Shown piece by piece: positions 4,856 to 19,200 of a DNA stretch of 28,287 bases. The stretch covers positions 1 through 28,287 of IMG/VR virus record IMGVR_UViG_3300025695_001894. One strand, written 5' to 3'. Source of the stretch: a virus. The first letter of the stretch is position 1, and every line of letters begins with the position of its first letter. The notes below the pieces were generated by a model, which saw only the letters and a list, made by a program, of their open reading frames with translations, had not been told where the DNA came from and searched no databases. The translations under genes and the position numbers were made by a program.

Positions 4856-6700
4856 ATGAAAATTAATGTAATTACCCGAAGTACTCGCCTTCATAATTTA
4901 AAAACTGTAAAAGAATCTGTATTCAGCAATATACCTAAAGGATTGAAAATAGGATGGCATGTTGTATTCGATGTGAATTCGCTTAAAGATATTGATGCAG
5001 AATTATTAGGTGAACTAGAGGACTCAAATACAACATACTACTTTAAAAAAGGAGATGTCGTTGGCATGTTATACCCACAGACTGGTGAGATAATTTCAAC
5101 TTTCAAAAAATCTTGGGTATATTTTTTAGATGATGATAATATAATGCATCCAAATTTCTATACACAGATTAGTAAAAAAATAGAAGAAAATCCTGAAAAA
5201 ATGGTCCATGTAGTTTCACAGAGGGTAGATGGAAAGGATTTTACAGGTCTTGATTTTAGATTAGCTGATCCATCATTTGTAAAAAAGAGTAGAATTGACC
5301 TTGCTCAATTTATAGTTAACTCTGAGGTATACAATGAATGGGGTTATAAATTTCAACCAGATTATTGCGCTGACGGTATTTTAATCGAGCAGGTTTTTAA
5401 AGAGCACCCAACCTGGTTTACATTTACAATTGATGAATTAAGTTACTATAATTACTTAGAGAAAAAATCAACAGCAAAAGTACCTAAAGTATTGTATGTT
5501 GGCAAGGACGAGCCTGAATTAAAATCACTTAAAATACTTGATTATGAGGCAGATAATTTAGATGTTAAGTATTTAAAATCAGATGACCAAATTCAAATTC
5601 ATTTAGCCAAATTTAAACCAGACGTTATTATAACAAGAGGTGGATCATGGAAAGAATTTCCAGGAATGGCAAACATGCCTCTTCAATTTCGTAGAAAATG
5701 GGTAAATGTGCCTGTTGATAAATCAATTGAAGAAGTTGGACAATTAGCATATCAGTGTTCTATGGAAACCCTATTATCACCAGATGGACTTGAAGATTCA
5801 GAAATGATTTCATACACAACCCCAATTTATAACACAGGGGATAAACTGTACAACACCTACGGGTCTCTATTAGAACAGACTTACCAAAATTGGGAGTGGG
5901 TTCTTATTAATGATTCAACTGATGGCGGTAGAACTCTTAAAACAGCAGAAGATATTGCAAGTCGAGATCCTCGAGTTAGGGTTTATGATTTTAGAGAAAA
6001 GAGTGGAGGAAACATTGGTGAAGTAAAATGGAGAGCAAATTGCATGGCTAAAGGATTTATTTTAGCAGAATTAGACCATGATGATTTATTGGTTCCATGG
6101 TGTACTGAAGATTTATATAAGGCGGCAAAGAAACATCCGGAGGCTGGATTCTTTTTTAATGACACTCTTGAAGTTAATGAAAATTGGGAATCTCAAACCT
6201 ATCCTGATGGATTTGCATTTGCGTATGGATCCTATAGAGATGAAGAGTATAAGGGTAAAATGATGAAAGTTGCAAATCAACATAATATTAACCCAAAAAC
6301 TATTAGACACATTGTTGGTGTTCCAAACCACGTAAGAGCATGGAGAAGAACAACCTACTTTGAAATCGGAGGACATAATAGAAACCTTACAGTGGCTGAT
6401 GATTATGAATTAGTTGTAAGAACTTTTTTAAAGACAATCACTTGTAAAATACCAAAACTTGGATATGTTCAATTCTTATATAATAATGCAAATGGCCAAA
6501 ATACACATGACATGGCTAGGGCAGATATTCAAAGAAGAGTGCGCACGATTGGCTACTATTATAATGAGCAAATCAAGAATAGATTTGAAGAACTTGGTCT
6601 TAAAGATTGGGCATATGAAGAATTTCCAGGAGCTCCACTTCGGGCAAAGCCAAGATATGGTGCAGAAGAAATGGCTGCCAATATAATCTATCAAGAATAA
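4856..6700 (+). CDS. Double glycosyltransferase (GT-A + Rossmann linker + GT2)
   Basis: 614 residues from the ATG at 4856. An in-frame ATG at 4805 lies within the previous gene and would add 17 unconserved residues. Residues 1-200 form a GT-A-like domain beginning MKINVITRSTRL, with an acidic metal motif DDDN at 92-95. Residues ~208-305 look like a separate Rossmann-like domain (VPKVLYVGKDEPELKSLKIL ... FKPDVIITRGGSW). Residues ~315-600 are a classic GT2 domain: SYTTPIYNTGDKLYNTYGSL, WVLINDSTDGG, and the catalytic-type DHDD at 407-410. Two catalytic domains in one chain suggest it adds two sugars in sequence to a surface polysaccharide or virion glycan. It is transcribed with the neighbouring oxygenase and other transferases. 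Donor sugars are unknown. Confidence 0.82.
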   Translation: MKINVITRSTRLHNLKTVKESVFSNIPKGLKIGWHVVFDVNSLKDIDAELLGELEDSNTTYYFKKGDVVGMLYPQTGEIISTFKKSWVYFLDDDNIMHPNFYTQISKKIEENPEKMVHVVSQRVDGKDFTGLDFRLADPSFVKKSRIDLAQFIVNSEVYNEWGYKFQPDYCADGILIEQVFKEHPTWFTFTIDELSYYNYLEKKSTAKVPKVLYVGKDEPELKSLKILDYEADNLDVKYLKSDDQIQIHLAKFKPDVIITRGGSWKEFPGMANMPLQFRRKWVNVPVDKSIEEVGQLAYQCSMETLLSPDGLEDSEMISYTTPIYNTGDKLYNTYGSLLEQTYQNWEWVLINDSTDGGRTLKTAEDIASRDPRVRVYDFREKSGGNIGEVKWRANCMAKGFILAELDHDDLLVPWCTEDLYKAAKKHPEAGFFFNDTLEVNENWESQTYPDGFAFAYGSYRDEEYKGKMMKVANQHNINPKTIRHIVGVPNHVRAWRRTTYFEIGGHNRNLTVADDYELVVRTFLKTITCKIPKLGYVQFLYNNANGQNTHDMARADIQRRVRTIGYYYNEQIKNRFEELGLKDWAYEEFPGAPLRAKPRYGAEEMAANIIYQE

Positions 6701-9673: not shown

Positions 9674-10482
9674 TGAGCTACTACGATACCTTAAATGTAT
9701 CTCAAACTGCAACACAAGAAGAGATTAAAAAATCTTATAGAAAGCTTGCAAAAGAATATCACCCAGATATAAACGATGGAGACGATTCTAAATTTAAAAA
9801 ATTGGCAGAGGCATATGAAACATTAAGTGATGATAAACTAAGAAGGTCATATGACCTTAAAAATATGGGTAGAACAAGTGCGCAGCATGAATTTGAAAGG
9901 GCCTGGTCAAGCGCGTTTAATCAAAGTGATAGTTTTTCAGATATGTTCAATAATATCTACAATGAAACCTCTAAAGGCCCTGATGTTAGAGTTTCCTTGA
10001 ACATTACAATGGAGGAGGTTTACTATGGTACAAGAAGACATATAAATGTAGGTCAAGGTGGTTTCAATCTAAATATACCTAAAGGAATATTAAATGGAAC
10101 TAAACTTAAAATAAGGGAACGTGGGGCAGAGCACCCGATAAATTCAATGGCTCCTCGTGGAGATGTAATAGTTACAGTTAATACACTATTTGACCCAGAT
10201 CTGGTGGTAAATGGCTCAGATATTTATGTTGATATATCTTTAGATTGGTGGGATATTTTATTAGGTGGTGAATTTGAGGTTAACACAAAAATTAATACGG
10301 TTAAGATAAAGGTTCCTCAAGGTTCACATGATTCTAAATTATTAAGAGTAGTTGGTAAGGGAATGCCAATATATAGTACAGAAGAATATGGCAATTTGAT
10401 GGTTAAACTTAGAACTAAAAAAATAGATTTAAGCGAGGATCAAATCAAACTACTTAAAAATATAAAAGAATCCAATGGATGA
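9673..10482 (+). CDS. DnaJ/CbpA-like co-chaperone
   Basis: 269 residues. The J domain occupies residues 2-66 with HPD at 30-32 and the helix III/IV sequence FKKLAEAYETLSDDKLRRSYD. There is no Cys-rich zinc finger and only a short linker, so it is a type II (CbpA-like) J protein. The two C-terminal beta domains follow: ITMEEVYYGTRRHINV, IPKGILNGTKLKIRERG and WWDILLGGEFEVNTK. It would deliver clients to host DnaK and stimulate its ATPase. It is shorter than cellular CbpA (~300) because the Gly/Phe linker and the dimerisation tail are reduced. It overlaps genes on both sides (1 and 8 bases). Together with Hsp20 it suggests the phage re-tools the host folding system. Confidence 0.93.
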   Translation: MSYYDTLNVSQTATQEEIKKSYRKLAKEYHPDINDGDDSKFKKLAEAYETLSDDKLRRSYDLKNMGRTSAQHEFERAWSSAFNQSDSFSDMFNNIYNETSKGPDVRVSLNITMEEVYYGTRRHINVGQGGFNLNIPKGILNGTKLKIRERGAEHPINSMAPRGDVIVTVNTLFDPDLVVNGSDIYVDISLDWWDILLGGEFEVNTKINTVKIKVPQGSHDSKLLRVVGKGMPIYSTEEYGNLMVKLRTKKIDLSEDQIKLLKNIKESNG

Positions 10483-11290: not shown

Positions 11291-11998
11291 ATGCAGAAGA
11301 AGACTAATTCAGAACCAACGCCTAGCGTTAAACGAATGTCAGTTAAAGAAGACAATATTAAACATGTTAATTTACGAAACAATCAAAGAGAATACGTCCA
11401 ACAAATTCTAAAGAATCAAATCACATTTTGTTCAGGCCCTGCCGGAACTTCAAAAACATTTACTGCATGTTACACATCCCTACTATTATTAGCCGAAAAA
11501 AAGGTTAAAAAGATTATTTTATGTAAGCCAATCCAAGAATCTGGAGAAAGGCTTGGATTCTTACCTGGCGATATTGCAGATAAAATTGACCCATACATGC
11601 AATCCTATATTTCTAATTTTAAAAAAATCGCAGGTAATGAATTAATTGAAAGCCTGATTCATTATGGATTAATAGAATTCAAACCACTAGCATTTATGAG
11701 AGGAGATACCTTTGATAATGCTTTCATGATTTTAGATGAATCTCAAAATGCACAATGGCATGCTTTAATTTTATTCATAACAAGGATGGGTAAAAATTCA
11801 AAAGTGCTTATAACCGGAGATATTAGTCAATATGATATAGCCAAAGATAAAGTGTCATTTCATAAATTTATTAAAATTTTTAGTAAGGTAAATGGAGTCG
11901 GTGTACATGAATTCACAACAAAGGATATTGTTAGAGCTAAAATTTTACAGGATATAGTGCGCATATATGATAAATGGAAGGATGAAAATAATCTTTAA
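11291..11998 (+). CDS. phoH: PhoH-like ATPase
   Basis: 235 residues. Walker A is GPAGTSKT (49-56), with Ser where most relatives have Gly. Walker B is FMILDESQNA (145-154), and LITGDISQYD is the sensor-like strand. The KPIQESGERLGFLPGD segment is the hallmark of PhoH/YlaK proteins. PhoH homologs are NTPases or helicases linked to RNA metabolism in cells and are common in marine phages. The extra N-terminal ~25 residues are polar and likely disordered. A long-stem terminator follows, separating it from the homing endonuclease gene downstream. Confidence 0.93.
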   Translation: MQKKTNSEPTPSVKRMSVKEDNIKHVNLRNNQREYVQQILKNQITFCSGPAGTSKTFTACYTSLLLLAEKKVKKIILCKPIQESGERLGFLPGDIADKIDPYMQSYISNFKKIAGNELIESLIHYGLIEFKPLAFMRGDTFDNAFMILDESQNAQWHALILFITRMGKNSKVLITGDISQYDIAKDKVSFHKFIKIFSKVNGVGVHEFTTKDIVRAKILQDIVRIYDKWKDENNL

Positions 11999-12008
11999 TA
12001 TATAAACA

Positions 12009-12072
12009 AAGCCAGTATAGAATGTTGAATTTGTAGTTATTTTCATAAGAAATTCTATACTTGGCTTTTTTT
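12009..12072 (+). terminator. Long-stem terminator after phoH
   Basis: AAGCCAGTATAGAAT (12009-12023) pairs with ATTCTATACTTGGCTT (12052-12067) with one bulged base, and T's continue to 12072. The 28-base loop is unusual: it carries the sequence that can pair with the leader and start of the downstream gene (see 12021-12134). Confidence 0.85.
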
Positions 12073-12134
12073 CATAAATAAAAAGATATATAATATAACT
12101 ACAAATATATCAACATTTATGAAAAACTACAAAT
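12021..12134 (+). promoter_or_regulatory. Start-sequestering pairing at the homing endonuclease gene
   Basis: AATGTTG (12021-12027) and ATTTGTAGTTAT (12029-12040) are exact complements of CAACATT (12111-12117) and ATAACTACAAAT (12095-12106), just before the ATG at 12119. The same left segment can instead pair with the start itself: ATTTGTAGT (12029-12037) with ACTACAAAT (12126-12134), and TTTTCAT (12040-12046) with ATGAAAA (12119-12125), with a 2-base bulge. A late-type box (12087-12094) lies between the arms. Confidence 0.6.
12087..12094 (+). promoter_or_regulatory. Putative late-type promoter box TATATAAT
   Basis: AGATATATAAT lies 24 bases before the endonuclease ATG. A transcript started here would lack the upstream arm (12021-12046) and so escape the sequestering fold. 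Confidence 0.5.
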
Positions 12135-12928
12135 ACTATTATGTGTATCGAATAACAAATAAGATTCATAATAAACACTATTATGGATATCGATCTACAA
12201 ATACAGCACCATCATTAGATATCGGAATAAAATATTATTCTTCAAGTAAAGATAAAGATTTTATAGAAGATCAAATTAATAACCCACATAAATATAAATA
12301 TACTGTTGTTTGTATTTTTAATAACAGGGAAGATGCGCATAATCTAGAAATAAAATTACATAAACGATTTAATGTAGGTTCTAATCCATCATTTTACAAT
12401 AGGGCAAACGCAACATCTTCTAAATTTTCAATTACCGGTACGATTTTATCTGAAGAAACTAAGAAAAAAATGTCAAATGCGCACAAAGGTAAAATACTTT
12501 CCAAAGAAACGCGAGATAAAATATCAAAGGCAAATAAAGGAACCAAGCACTCTGCTGAATTTAAGGAAAAAATAAGAGCGAGAGCTATTGGAAATACATA
12601 TCATAAAAATAAAAAGCATTCAAAAGAATCCAAAGATAAGATTTCTAATTCACTTAAGGGCAGAAAAGCATGGAACAAAGGTCTAAAGACGCCGGATGAT
12701 GTCAAAGCAAAACAATCATTATCTAAATTAAATATGACCCAAGAACAAAAAGATAAAATGCATTCTTGGAAAAAAGGTCGACCTTGCCCAGATCATGTTA
12801 GACAGAAATTATCAAAACCTCAGAAAAAGGTGGAATGTCCGCACTGCAATAAGATAGGAGGTATTTCTGCAATGAAACAATCTCATTTTGATAGGTGTAA
12901 ATGGAGAATTGATAATCCTGAAAAATAA
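12119..12928 (+). CDS. Free-standing GIY-YIG homing endonuclease with NUMOD3 repeats
   Basis: 269 residues. The N-terminal ~90 form a GIY-YIG nuclease: YYVYRITNKIHNKHYYGYRS holds the two tyrosine motifs and the catalytic Arg (R25), and a conserved Glu follows in AHNLEIKLHKRF. Residues ~105-230 hold repeated NUMOD3-type DNA-binding units (LSEETKKKMSNAHKGK, LSKETRDKISKANKGT, HSKESKDKISNSLKGR, AWNKG). The C-terminus has a probable zinc finger, CPHC...H...C (about 239-260). Like T4 Seg enzymes, it would cut homing-negative relatives and spread itself by repair. It stands between phoH and rnhB, each side bearing start-sequestering inverted repeats. No intron splice structure was seen. Confidence 0.9.
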   Translation: MKNYKYYYVYRITNKIHNKHYYGYRSTNTAPSLDIGIKYYSSSKDKDFIEDQINNPHKYKYTVVCIFNNREDAHNLEIKLHKRFNVGSNPSFYNRANATSSKFSITGTILSEETKKKMSNAHKGKILSKETRDKISKANKGTKHSAEFKEKIRARAIGNTYHKNKKHSKESKDKISNSLKGRKAWNKGLKTPDDVKAKQSLSKLNMTQEQKDKMHSWKKGRPCPDHVRQKLSKPQKKVECPHCNKIGGISAMKQSHFDRCKWRIDNPEK

Positions 12929-12935
12929 GAAACTA

Positions 12936-12986
12936 TTTTGCTTCCATCTATATAATATCTATATAAAATTATAAATGGAAGCAAAA
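12936..12986 (+). promoter_or_regulatory. Hairpin hiding the rnhB start, with late-type boxes in its loop
   Basis: TTTTGCTTCCAT (12936-12947) is the exact reverse complement of ATGGAAGCAAAA (12975-12986), the first four codons of rnhB. The 27-base loop holds TATATAAT (12949-12956) and TATATAAA (12960-12967). Read-through RNA from the endonuclease gene would hide the start codon. RNA begun within the loop would not. Confidence 0.7.
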
Positions 12987-13607
12987 CTTATTTACCTTAA
13001 ATCTAGCTACACTGGATTAGAAACTACAATAGAAATTGGATTAGATGAAGCAGGTCGAGGAGCCCTTGCAGGACCTGTCACAGTCGCAGCATGTATAATG
13101 CCTTTTGGATTTCAGCACCAACTTATTAAAGATTCTAAACTTTTAAATGAAGGGCAAAGAAAAGAGGCTAGAGAGATAGTACTTGAAAATGCACTAGCAT
13201 ATCACGTAGAACACATTTACCCCGATGAAATTGAATCAACAAACATCCTAAGAGCTACACTTAGAGGTATGAACCAGTGTCTCTTAGAGGTTAAGAAGAA
13301 TCATAACTTTGATTTTATTTTAGTTGATGGAGATCAATTCCATGGATTTGAAGGAATTCCATTTGAAACTGTAATCGGTGGAGACAATAAATATACATCA
13401 ATTGCAGCTGCAAGTATTTTGGCTAAAACTGAAAGGGATATGATGATGAAAGAATTGGATGAAAAGATTCCAGGATATGGATGGAACTCTAATAAAGGAT
13501 ATGGCACTGCAGCACACATCAAAGCAATTAAGGAAATTGGGCCAACTGAAAACCATCGACCAAGCTTTATTTCACATCTACTAACTGAAACAGCTTCACT
13601 GTTTTGA
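12975..13607 (+). CDS. rnhB: Ribonuclease HII
   Basis: 210 residues, the normal RNase HII length. The catalytic signature GLDEAGRGALAGPV holds D24 and E25. ILVDGDQ supplies the third acid (D118), and KTERD the fourth (D155). DSKLL and GGDNKYTSIAAASILAK are also diagnostic, and the C-terminal GYGT...H...GPTENHRPSF matches the substrate-binding end. The enzyme cleaves RNA-DNA hybrids 5' of a ribonucleotide, removing primers or misincorporated ribonucleotides during phage replication. T4 uses an unrelated RNase H, so RNase HII here is a different solution. The start codon is inside a 12-bp hairpin arm. The stop overlaps the next start (TTGA). Confidence 0.95.
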   Translation: MEAKLIYLKSSYTGLETTIEIGLDEAGRGALAGPVTVAACIMPFGFQHQLIKDSKLLNEGQRKEAREIVLENALAYHVEHIYPDEIESTNILRATLRGMNQCLLEVKKNHNFDFILVDGDQFHGFEGIPFETVIGGDNKYTSIAAASILAKTERDMMMKELDEKIPGYGWNSNKGYGTAAHIKAIKEIGPTENHRPSFISHLLTETASLF

Positions 13608-13948: not shown

Positions 13949-13963
13949 ATTGTTAATAACTTT
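13948..13963 (+). repeat. 16-bp direct repeat, copy 1
   Basis: AATTGTTAATAACTTT starts at the last base of the stop codon and recurs exactly at 14252-14267, again after a stop codon. In both places a terminator and then a TATATTTR box follow, so a whole intergenic module seems duplicated. It contains the short palindrome GTTAATAAC. Confidence 0.75.
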
Positions 13964-13975
13964 TTGAAAATAATT

Positions 13976-14005
13976 AGCCAAACATTTTTTTGTTTGGCTT
14001 TTTTT
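13976..14005 (+). terminator. Rho-independent terminator
   Basis: AGCCAAACA (13976-13984) and TGTTTGGCT (13991-13999) pair perfectly around six T, followed by a T run. Confidence 0.92.
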
Positions 14006-14008
14006 GTT

Positions 14009-14016
14009 TATATTTG
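14009..14016 (+). promoter_or_regulatory. Host-type -7 box TATATTTG
   Basis: This is an exact match to the Bacteroidota -7 consensus TAnnTTTG, placed right after the terminator and 36 bases before the ATG at 14053. TTTG occurs upstream at 13989-13992 inside the terminator arm, with a 16-base spacer that is shorter than usual. Confidence 0.55.
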
Positions 14017-14052
14017 TATAGTAATTAAATAACAACATTAAAATATAACATT

Positions 14053-14253
14053 ATGACAAAATTAGAATTAGACTACAGTAAAATTAGTAACGTTTTAGTT
14101 GGAGGAGTTGATATGCAAGATTATCCAGATTTCTGTGATGCATACATTGAATCCGCTGATTATGATGGTCGCGAAATGACCGACGAAGAATTAGATCTTT
14201 TAAATGAAGACGGATGTTTCATCTCAGAATCAGCTCATGAGAGTCTATATTAA
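14053..14253 (+). CDS. Small acidic protein, unknown
   Basis: 66 residues, strongly acidic (calculated by eye, far more D/E than K/R). YSKISNVLVGGVDMQDYPDFCDAYIESADY is followed by a helix MTDEELDLLNED. The V-x-x-x-D-x-x-D-Y-P-D-F-x-D-A pattern resembles short phage and cellular proteins often annotated only as hypothetical. The acidity could suit DNA mimicry or an inhibitor role, but nothing in the sequence proves it. It is monocistronic: its own host-type promoter box lies upstream and a terminator downstream, as expected for an early-expressed takeover gene. Confidence 0.75.
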   Translation: MTKLELDYSKISNVLVGGVDMQDYPDFCDAYIESADYDGREMTDEELDLLNEDGCFISESAHESLY

Positions 14254-14267
14254 TTGTTAATAACTTT
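14252..14267 (+). repeat. 16-bp direct repeat, copy 2
   Basis: This is an exact second copy of AATTGTTAATAACTTT (first copy at 13948), again beginning in a stop codon and followed by a terminator and a TATATTTA box. Confidence 0.75.
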
Positions 14268-14281
14268 AACATAACTTTAAC
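14260..14281 (+). repeat. Tandem 11-bp repeat
   Basis: ATAACTTTAAC occurs twice in direct tandem (14260-14270 and 14271-14281), one helical turn apart. The spacing suits a protein-binding site, but its distance from the promoter box (~33 bases) and the intervening terminator leave the role open. Confidence 0.6.
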
Positions 14282-14283
14282 AT

Positions 14284-14310
14284 CTGAGATTTTTTTAGTC
14301 TCAGTTTTTT
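14284..14310 (+). terminator. Rho-independent terminator
   Basis: CTGAGA (14284-14289) pairs with TCTCAG (14299-14304) around a 9-base T-rich loop, followed by six T. Confidence 0.8.
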
Positions 14311-14313
14311 ATT

Positions 14314-14321
14314 TATATTTA
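14314..14321 (+). promoter_or_regulatory. Host-type -7 box TATATTTA
   Basis: It sits in TTTATATTTACATATAATTA, which is identical to the stretch before the gene at 9068. The start codon at 14347 follows 25 bases later. Confidence 0.55.
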
Positions 14322-14346
14322 CATATAATTAATTAAAACAAAACAA

Positions 14347-14532
14347 ATGATAAAAAAATTAGAAGTGAGTGCAGAAAATAGCAAAATAATTGATGGTAGT
14401 TTATACATAACTGCGGTTTTTGCTCAAAACCTGGTAAAAGGTCAGAAAGCATTGGTTGATGTTTCAAATAAAGTTAACTTTCCAGGAATGGGTCAATTAG
14501 TTAAGTATAACGGCGAATACAATAGAAAATAA
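14347..14532 (+). CDS. Small protein, unknown
   Basis: 61 residues, beta-rich (KKLEVSAENSKIIDGSLYITAVFAQNL) with a glycine turn near the end (FPGMGQLVKYNGEYN). There is no catalytic motif or membrane helix. It opens a run of three closely packed small genes ending in uvdE, with 2-base spacing to the next, and its host-type promoter box suggests early expression. I do not recognise a family. Confidence 0.7.
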   Translation: MIKKLEVSAENSKIIDGSLYITAVFAQNLVKGQKALVDVSNKVNFPGMGQLVKYNGEYNRK

Positions 14533-14534
14533 TT

Positions 14535-19142: not shown

Positions 19143-19164
19143 TCACCAGATTAAACATTTTAAA

Positions 19165-19200
19165 AAGTCTATATATAATAAACATATATAGACTTTTTTT
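19165..19200 (+). terminator. Terminator with embedded promoter-like box
   Basis: AAGTCTATATAT (19165-19176) and ATATATAGACTT (19184-19195) pair perfectly around a 7-base loop, with T's to 19200. The stem and loop include TATATAAT (19172-19179), 21 bases before the ATG at 19201, so the element may both end one message and start the next. Confidence 0.85.

Follow-up and report, generated by a model that had tools for sequence, protein, structure and literature searches.

In a 28.3-kb virus fragment (the window, i.e., the whole stretch of DNA that was analysed; 31% GC), the 120-nt gap that separates phoH from a homing endonuclease gene (HEG) contains, in this order, a terminator-like hairpin, a GATATATAAT box, and a leader, and the loop of the hairpin carries a strand complementary to the leader and to the start codon region of the HEG. 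We consider it likely, with a probability of roughly 0.7, that this element controls expression as the front end of a mobile HEG cassette, consisting of a terminator, a promoter, and a start-codon lock that silences read-through RNA. The element has the anatomy described below, keeps its pairing through covarying changes, accompanies HEGs, is absent where the HEG is absent, and moves together with the 3' end of phoH.

Anatomy of the phoH-HEG region

The three genes concerned lie on the + strand in the order phoH (11291-11998), HEG (12119-12928), and rnhB (12975-13607). The features of the region are as follows.

11291-11998, + strand: phoH (Pfam PhoH, E = 1.5e-62)
12008-12072, + strand: Rho-independent-terminator-like hairpin (stem 12008-12023/12052-12068, then T7), seen only with the HEG
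12022-12028, + strand: lock arm a (ATGTTGA), pairing with 12110-12116 over 7 bp
12029-12040, + strand: lock arm b (ATTTGTAGTTAT), pairing with 12095-12106 over 12 bp, within the terminator hairpin's predicted apical loop or next to it
12041-12048, + strand: arm c (TTTCATAA), able to pair with 12117-12124, the start codon region that includes the ATG at 12119
12068-12079, + strand: 5' arm of a local start-codon hairpin, pairing with 12115-12126 (12/12 complementary) and overlapping the terminator U-tract
12085-12094, + strand: GATATATAAT box lying between the two arms and presumed to be a phage promoter
12095-12106, + strand: leader arm b' (ATAACTACAAAT), partner of arm b, starting right after the box
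12110-12116, + strand: leader arm a' (TCAACAT), partner of arm a, just 5' of the start codon
12119-12928, + strand: HEG with a GIY-YIG-like start and NUMOD3 motifs (PHROG homing endonuclease, E = 3.8e-32; NUMOD3, E = 2e-14)
12936-12986, + strand: rnhB start-codon hairpin (12936-12952/12970-12986, 17 nt, 94% complementary; z = -5.8) with TATATAAT in the loop region

The predicted terminator on the phoH side combines a stable stem of 15 to 16 bp and a U-tract with a loop of 28 nt; it was not listed by a simple scanner that allows loops of at most 8. The first 10 bases of arm b (12029-12038) have an alternative partner at 12125-12134, and the direct repeat AACTACAAATA occurs at 12097-12107 and 12125-12135. 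On recheck, the original prediction proved to have placed correctly the pairings of the terminator loop (7 + 12 bp with the leader, and alternatively with the ATG region), the repeat, and the box. The GIY-YIG Pfam model stayed below threshold for the HEG protein of the window.

The TATATAAT box occurs 13 times on the coding strand of the window and once on the opposite strand, and 7 of the 13 copies lie no more than 60 nt from a start, in zones that make up 9% of the window. It is enriched before genes, and it stands between the arms at all sites; it is presumed to be a promoter. A scan for sigma-70 promoters was uninformative, the sites being no more numerous than in shuffled sequences, and an Rfam scan of the window gave no match at the gathering score. 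No Shine-Dalgarno sequence precedes position 12119 or most of the other genes of the window, and what the lock is supposed to cover is the AUG.

Two further observations concern other parts of the window. Boxes of the TATATTTG/TATATTTA type precede small open reading frames (ORFs) at 13949-14534 and resemble Bacteroidota promoters, which suggests a Bacteroidota host for the phage. At 19143-19200, a hairpin (AAAAGTCTATATATAATAAACATATATAGACTTTTTTT) with the box inside it lies immediately 5' of an ATG and is kept in many relatives.

Conservation of the element in relatives

We then compared the phoH-rnhB site among relatives with and without the HEG. About 25 phoH relatives lack the HEG; in them phoH is followed directly by rnhB after a gap of 37 to 60 nt, which contains no terminator, loop arm, box, leader, or HEG. 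The HEG is present in four lineages, namely the window, L009/L036 (with L033 as a fragment), L019/L034, and L035, and all four keep the terminator, the arm, the box, the leader, and the ATG. The sequence of the terminator stem is different in each of them, and the loop and leader arms change together, reading TTTGTAGTTA/TAACTACAAA in three lineages and TTTGTGGTTA/TAACCACAAA in L035. Around the start codon, the arm pair TTTTCATAA/TTATGAAAA is replaced by the compensatory TTTTCATGA/TCATGAAAA in L019, and L035 has TTTTCGTGAA/TTCATGAAAA with one G-U pair. Complementarity is therefore kept with compensatory changes throughout the HEG-carrying lineages, and, as described below, it is found before other HEG families as well; the leader lock pairing, as a predicted helix, is well supported. 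The original prediction would have failed had relatives shown no such conservation, and it withstands that check.

The original prediction had further proposed two alternative locks. The leader pairing on which it relied is widely conserved, and the window and L009 have the alternative start-codon pairing, as do L019, where one change is compensatory, and L035, where a G-U pair occurs. The coding repeat AACTACAAAT, on the other hand, is absent from L035 and from all other families. An arrangement of two alternative locks would thus be specific to the window/L009/L019 sub-lineage, and in the other families the start-codon helix would constitute the second half of a single lock.

Searches by DNA similarity found no close relative of the locus among phage isolates. 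The nearest isolate HEG is that of Vibrio phage phiKT1024 (37%), which has a simple hairpin lock instead.

Movement of the element with the HEG and the phoH 3' end

In L009, where phoH lies at 1689-2399, the first ~450 bp of the gene are 89 to 99% identical to the HEG-less L021 type, and the identity then falls to 60 to 72%; from that point on the gene is window-like (82 to 89%), the switch lying ~260 bp before the stop codon. This sharp switch is a footprint of co-conversion, left by homing in which the donor was window-like and the recipient an L021-like phage. The phoH gene of the window is itself L004-like upstream and diverges from L004 in the same 3' third. This break in identity between phages with and without the HEG marks the last ~260 bp of phoH as part of the mobile tract that was co-converted along with the HEG.

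The HEG C terminus (KWRIDNPEK) and the bases that follow match the phoH tail of L004-type phages (12895-12928), and hence the HEG lies within the 3' end of an older phoH, the tail of which is fused in frame to the HEG C terminus. In L019, a 54-residue remnant of the phoH 3' end is kept after the HEG (5594-5755), and the HEG/phoH junctions of the window and L019 are independent insertion junctions. The HEG brought with it a replacement phoH tail, the terminator, and the lock. The gene has the properties of a mobile free-standing HEG: homing endonuclease domains, presence/absence polymorphism, and co-conversion of its flanks. A HEG-less locus with a HEG-type phoH end (KWKDENNL, TATATAAATAA) was seen in L002 (4697-4760), and it looks like a scar of HEG loss.

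The hairpin at the rnhB start codon

The original prediction had drawn an analogy with rnhB, on the other side of the HEG, and the relatives bear it out. The rnhB start codon lies inside a stable hairpin in 15 of 16 leaders, with z scores of about -5 to -10 relative to shuffles that keep base content only. The stems differ widely in sequence (CATCTATATA..., CATGTGTATA..., CATTCTCTGTATA...), and the same kind of box is found in or near the loop. This hairpin occurs in phages with and without the HEG alike.

Occurrence before other HEGs and covariation

The element turned out to be more general than first reported. A scan with a two-arm pattern leaving one base free in each arm matched 21 viral contigs, in which the matches precede GIY-YIG, HNH, and NUMOD-type ORFs; the ORF of one of them, L114, had no Pfam match. 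The same pattern gave eight matches in bacterial genomes, none of them before a HEG, and these served as a chance control. The free base pair is of the Watson-Crick type at all 18 distinct sites, with all four pair types represented, and is complementary in two of seven chance matches from the bacterial genomes. A second scan, of IMG/VR, used the box and the leader arm alone with no upstream requirement and returned 16 stretches with 17 sites, all within the list of the first scan; the upstream complement was present at 17/17. A third scan, combining the box with GIY-YIG start codons, gave L134 and L133. The arms of L134 (TTTATTTAGTTTGGTC/GACCAACTAAATAAA) have no sequence resemblance to the others and still form a duplex of -23.0 kcal/mol, and in L133 the box is enclosed by a simple hairpin. 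Two side observations come from these loci: L116 carries a second terminator-loop lock in one phage (8774-8903), 3' of rnhB and before a degenerate, prematurely stopped GIY-YIG ORF, and L125 (near 10070-10200) has a relic-like terminator loop (GTTTGTAATTATTC...) 5' of a non-HEG gene.

In an alignment of 17 rows, 96.8% of the cells of the 13-pair helix are paired and 27 cells are changed on both sides. The covariation score was 0.311, compared with 0.070 +/- 0.022 after shuffling (0/500 as high) and with no more than 0.050 when the partners were slid. Since the search pattern itself dictated the core arm bases, the informative positions are the free base and the three flanking pairs; the rows are related sequences rather than independent events. 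The second helix involves either the start codon or the bases immediately 5' of it and follows the coding sequence of each family (ATGTATATC, ATGAAACAT, ATGAAAA).

A survey based on protein similarity only yielded 92 distinct HEG starts, 11 of which had an upstream/leader duplex at z < -3. Seven of these belong to the group found by the scans, and the other four (L179, L197, L246, and L196) have arms of unrelated sequence. A TATAAATA box is present in the first three, and each of the four has, ahead of the promoter region, a hairpin that contains or overlaps the 5' arm and is followed by, or itself forms, a terminator. Many HEGs among the 92 had no such lock, and inspection by eye of 13 isolate HEG leaders revealed no convincing terminator-loop lock, local hairpins being present in some of them (phiKT1024, Phi1 segC, and Makalu). 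The terminator-loop layout is thus recurrent, not universal.

Predicted folding

The RNA of 12001-12150 folds with a z score of -5.6, and none of 200 shuffles folded as well; the upstream/leader duplex of the window reaches -21.3 kcal/mol (z = -6.6 against dinucleotide shuffles). The expectation that folding would surpass that of shuffled sequence was accordingly confirmed. In the same duplex test, 4 of 322 non-HEG genes of the same loci fell at z < -3, one of them (L114) being itself HEG-like. The 5' arm lies inside a hairpin at all 20 sites examined, and at many of them its core (TTTGTNGTTA) falls within the predicted apical loop or next to it.

The minimum-energy fold of the window region (-35.3 kcal/mol) consists of the terminator and the local hairpin (12068-12078/12116-12126). 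The 3' strand of this hairpin, ATTTATGAAAA, spans the ATG, and its 5' strand is made up of the terminator U-tract and CATAAAT. The fold contains neither proposed lock. The lock of arms a and b without the terminator amounts to -25.1 kcal/mol, i.e., the terminator plus local hairpin is favored by 10 kcal/mol in nearest-neighbour folding with nested pairs. By our estimate, the lock could form alongside the intact terminator as an H-type pseudoknot, sterically possible with connecting lengths of 0, 11, and 27 nt. In L035, the lock itself is the minimum-energy structure. The predicted probability that the AUG is unpaired is ~0 to 0.05 in the long RNA and ~0.45 to 0.6 in RNA starting from or after the box.

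A competition of terminator and lock for bases 12021-12023, which had been suggested to link termination to translation, found no specific support, since transcription of the terminator is complete before there is a 3' arm, and the lock can form with those pairs left closed (5 + 12 bp, 12024-12040).

Proposed mechanism and alternative explanations

In the reading that we prefer, a polymerase arriving from phoH would meet the terminator as a first barrier. In RNA that reads through, the terminator loop would carry the strand complementary to the HEG leader and start codon region; once the leader emerged, the loop strand would pair with it and block binding of the 30S subunit at the AUG, and in the window the second, local hairpin would block the same AUG. 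RNA begun at the GATATATAAT box would lack the 5' strand and leave the AUG largely free, so that the endonuclease would be made only when the box promoter, presumably late, fires. Where the box is of the GATATATAAT type, the transcript may start within arm b', leaving some of that arm outside the RNA. Against this reading stand this last point, the preference of the folding for the local hairpin in the window, the absence of a Shine-Dalgarno sequence, and the many HEGs of the wider survey without such a lock.

The same complementarity could act in trans: the hairpin loop of the terminated upstream RNA would pair with the 5' end of the HEG mRNA, and abundant phoH RNA would silence the mRNA made from the box. 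We find this doubtful as the main mode of action. It agrees with the finding that, at many sites, the best-conserved stretch of the arm is in the predicted loop or next to it, as in loop-linear antisense pairing, and with L179, L197, and L246, in which the leader arm starts at about the expected +1 of the TATAAATA promoter, so that the arm would be present in the late mRNA. At sites of the GATATATAAT group, however, the pairing begins 0 to 2 nt past the box, with bases that are probably outside the short mRNA, and the simple hairpin relatives (rnhB, L133, and phage phiKT1024) would act only in cis.

It is also conceivable, and somewhat less probable still, that the local hairpin 12068-12079/12115-12126 (plus GATATAT/ATATATC) is the only working lock and the loop complementarity ancestral baggage. 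This hairpin belongs to the minimum-energy fold, seals the AUG, and is common to the window and L009. Its form changes, though, in L019, where the stem ends before the AUG, and in L035, whereas the loop-leader pairing is kept in both with compensatory changes.

We regard it as improbable that the arms are a DNA operator, i.e., half-sites in inverted orientation that bind the endonuclease or some other DNA-binding protein and co-vary because both track it. The sites do flank a promoter-like box, a direct copy is also present in the coding start, and autorepression by I-TevI of its own late promoter is known (PMC2988022). Against an operator, the same arms precede unrelated GIY-YIG, HNH, and NUMOD-type proteins and lie inside a hairpin in 20/20 cases, the second helix changes with the coding sequence at each start codon, and G-U pairs occur where RNA permits them (L035 and L118).

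Chance or AT-rich composition, with short A/T helices being common at 31% GC, is refuted by the covariation (0/500 shuffles), along with the duplex z score of -6.6 and the free pair (18/18 versus 2/7 in the control), and can be set aside.

Relation to known systems and significance

Translational hairpins on homing endonuclease starts have been described for I-TevI, I-TevII, I-TevIII, and segB of T4 and for mobE of Aeh1 (PMC2988022), and leader hairpins hide the late gene start in early read-through RNA of T4 e (lysozyme), soc, and gene 49 (PMC3014915). As in the former group, the endonuclease start would here be sealed in RNA from upstream promoters, and the layout that we propose is the same, the late promoter being placed so that the late RNA loses the 5' strand. 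In those genes the structure is described as hiding a Shine-Dalgarno sequence, whereas here there is none and the start codon or adjacent bases are paired; moreover, the 5' strand lies here in the loop of a terminator preceding the promoter. Because no Shine-Dalgarno sequence is present in the stem, we say that the HEG element works like the T4 type and do not class it as a member. In T4 e, soc, and 49 the promoter is inside the hairpin, and rnhB of the window phage looks just like these; they are simple local hairpins of non-HEG genes with no terminator described between the arms, unlike the HEG element.

With intrinsic terminators the element shares the stem of 15 to 16 bp and the T7 tract, and it differs from them in the long, 28-nt loop that is tied by covariation to the leader of the next gene. 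In loop-linear antisense RNA control, a hairpin loop is complementary to a ribosome-binding region; the HEG element differs in being encoded in cis, upstream, and on the same strand. Our literature searches yielded precedents of the T4 type only and no terminator-loop variant. The differences here are the lock strand in the terminator loop, the pairing of the start codon, and the whole front end travelling with the HEG; the first of these is what is new.

A broader proposal would be that locks of the terminator-loop kind serve phage HEG cassettes generally as a modular safety catch, having re-evolved or recombined before different nuclease families in several phage groups, with the terminated RNA acting also as a trans antisense RNA. 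We put this forward tentatively, as a possibility with the odds against it.

Homing endonucleases insert between phage genes, and their expression at the wrong time must be avoided. A front end of terminator, lock, and promoter that moves with the gene offers a testable answer, at the level of sequence, to the question of how such a free-standing endonuclease keeps itself insulated. The T4 paradigm is thereby extended to phages with genes that have no Shine-Dalgarno sequences, and the findings suggest that a regulatory antisense strand can be encoded in the loop of a terminator.
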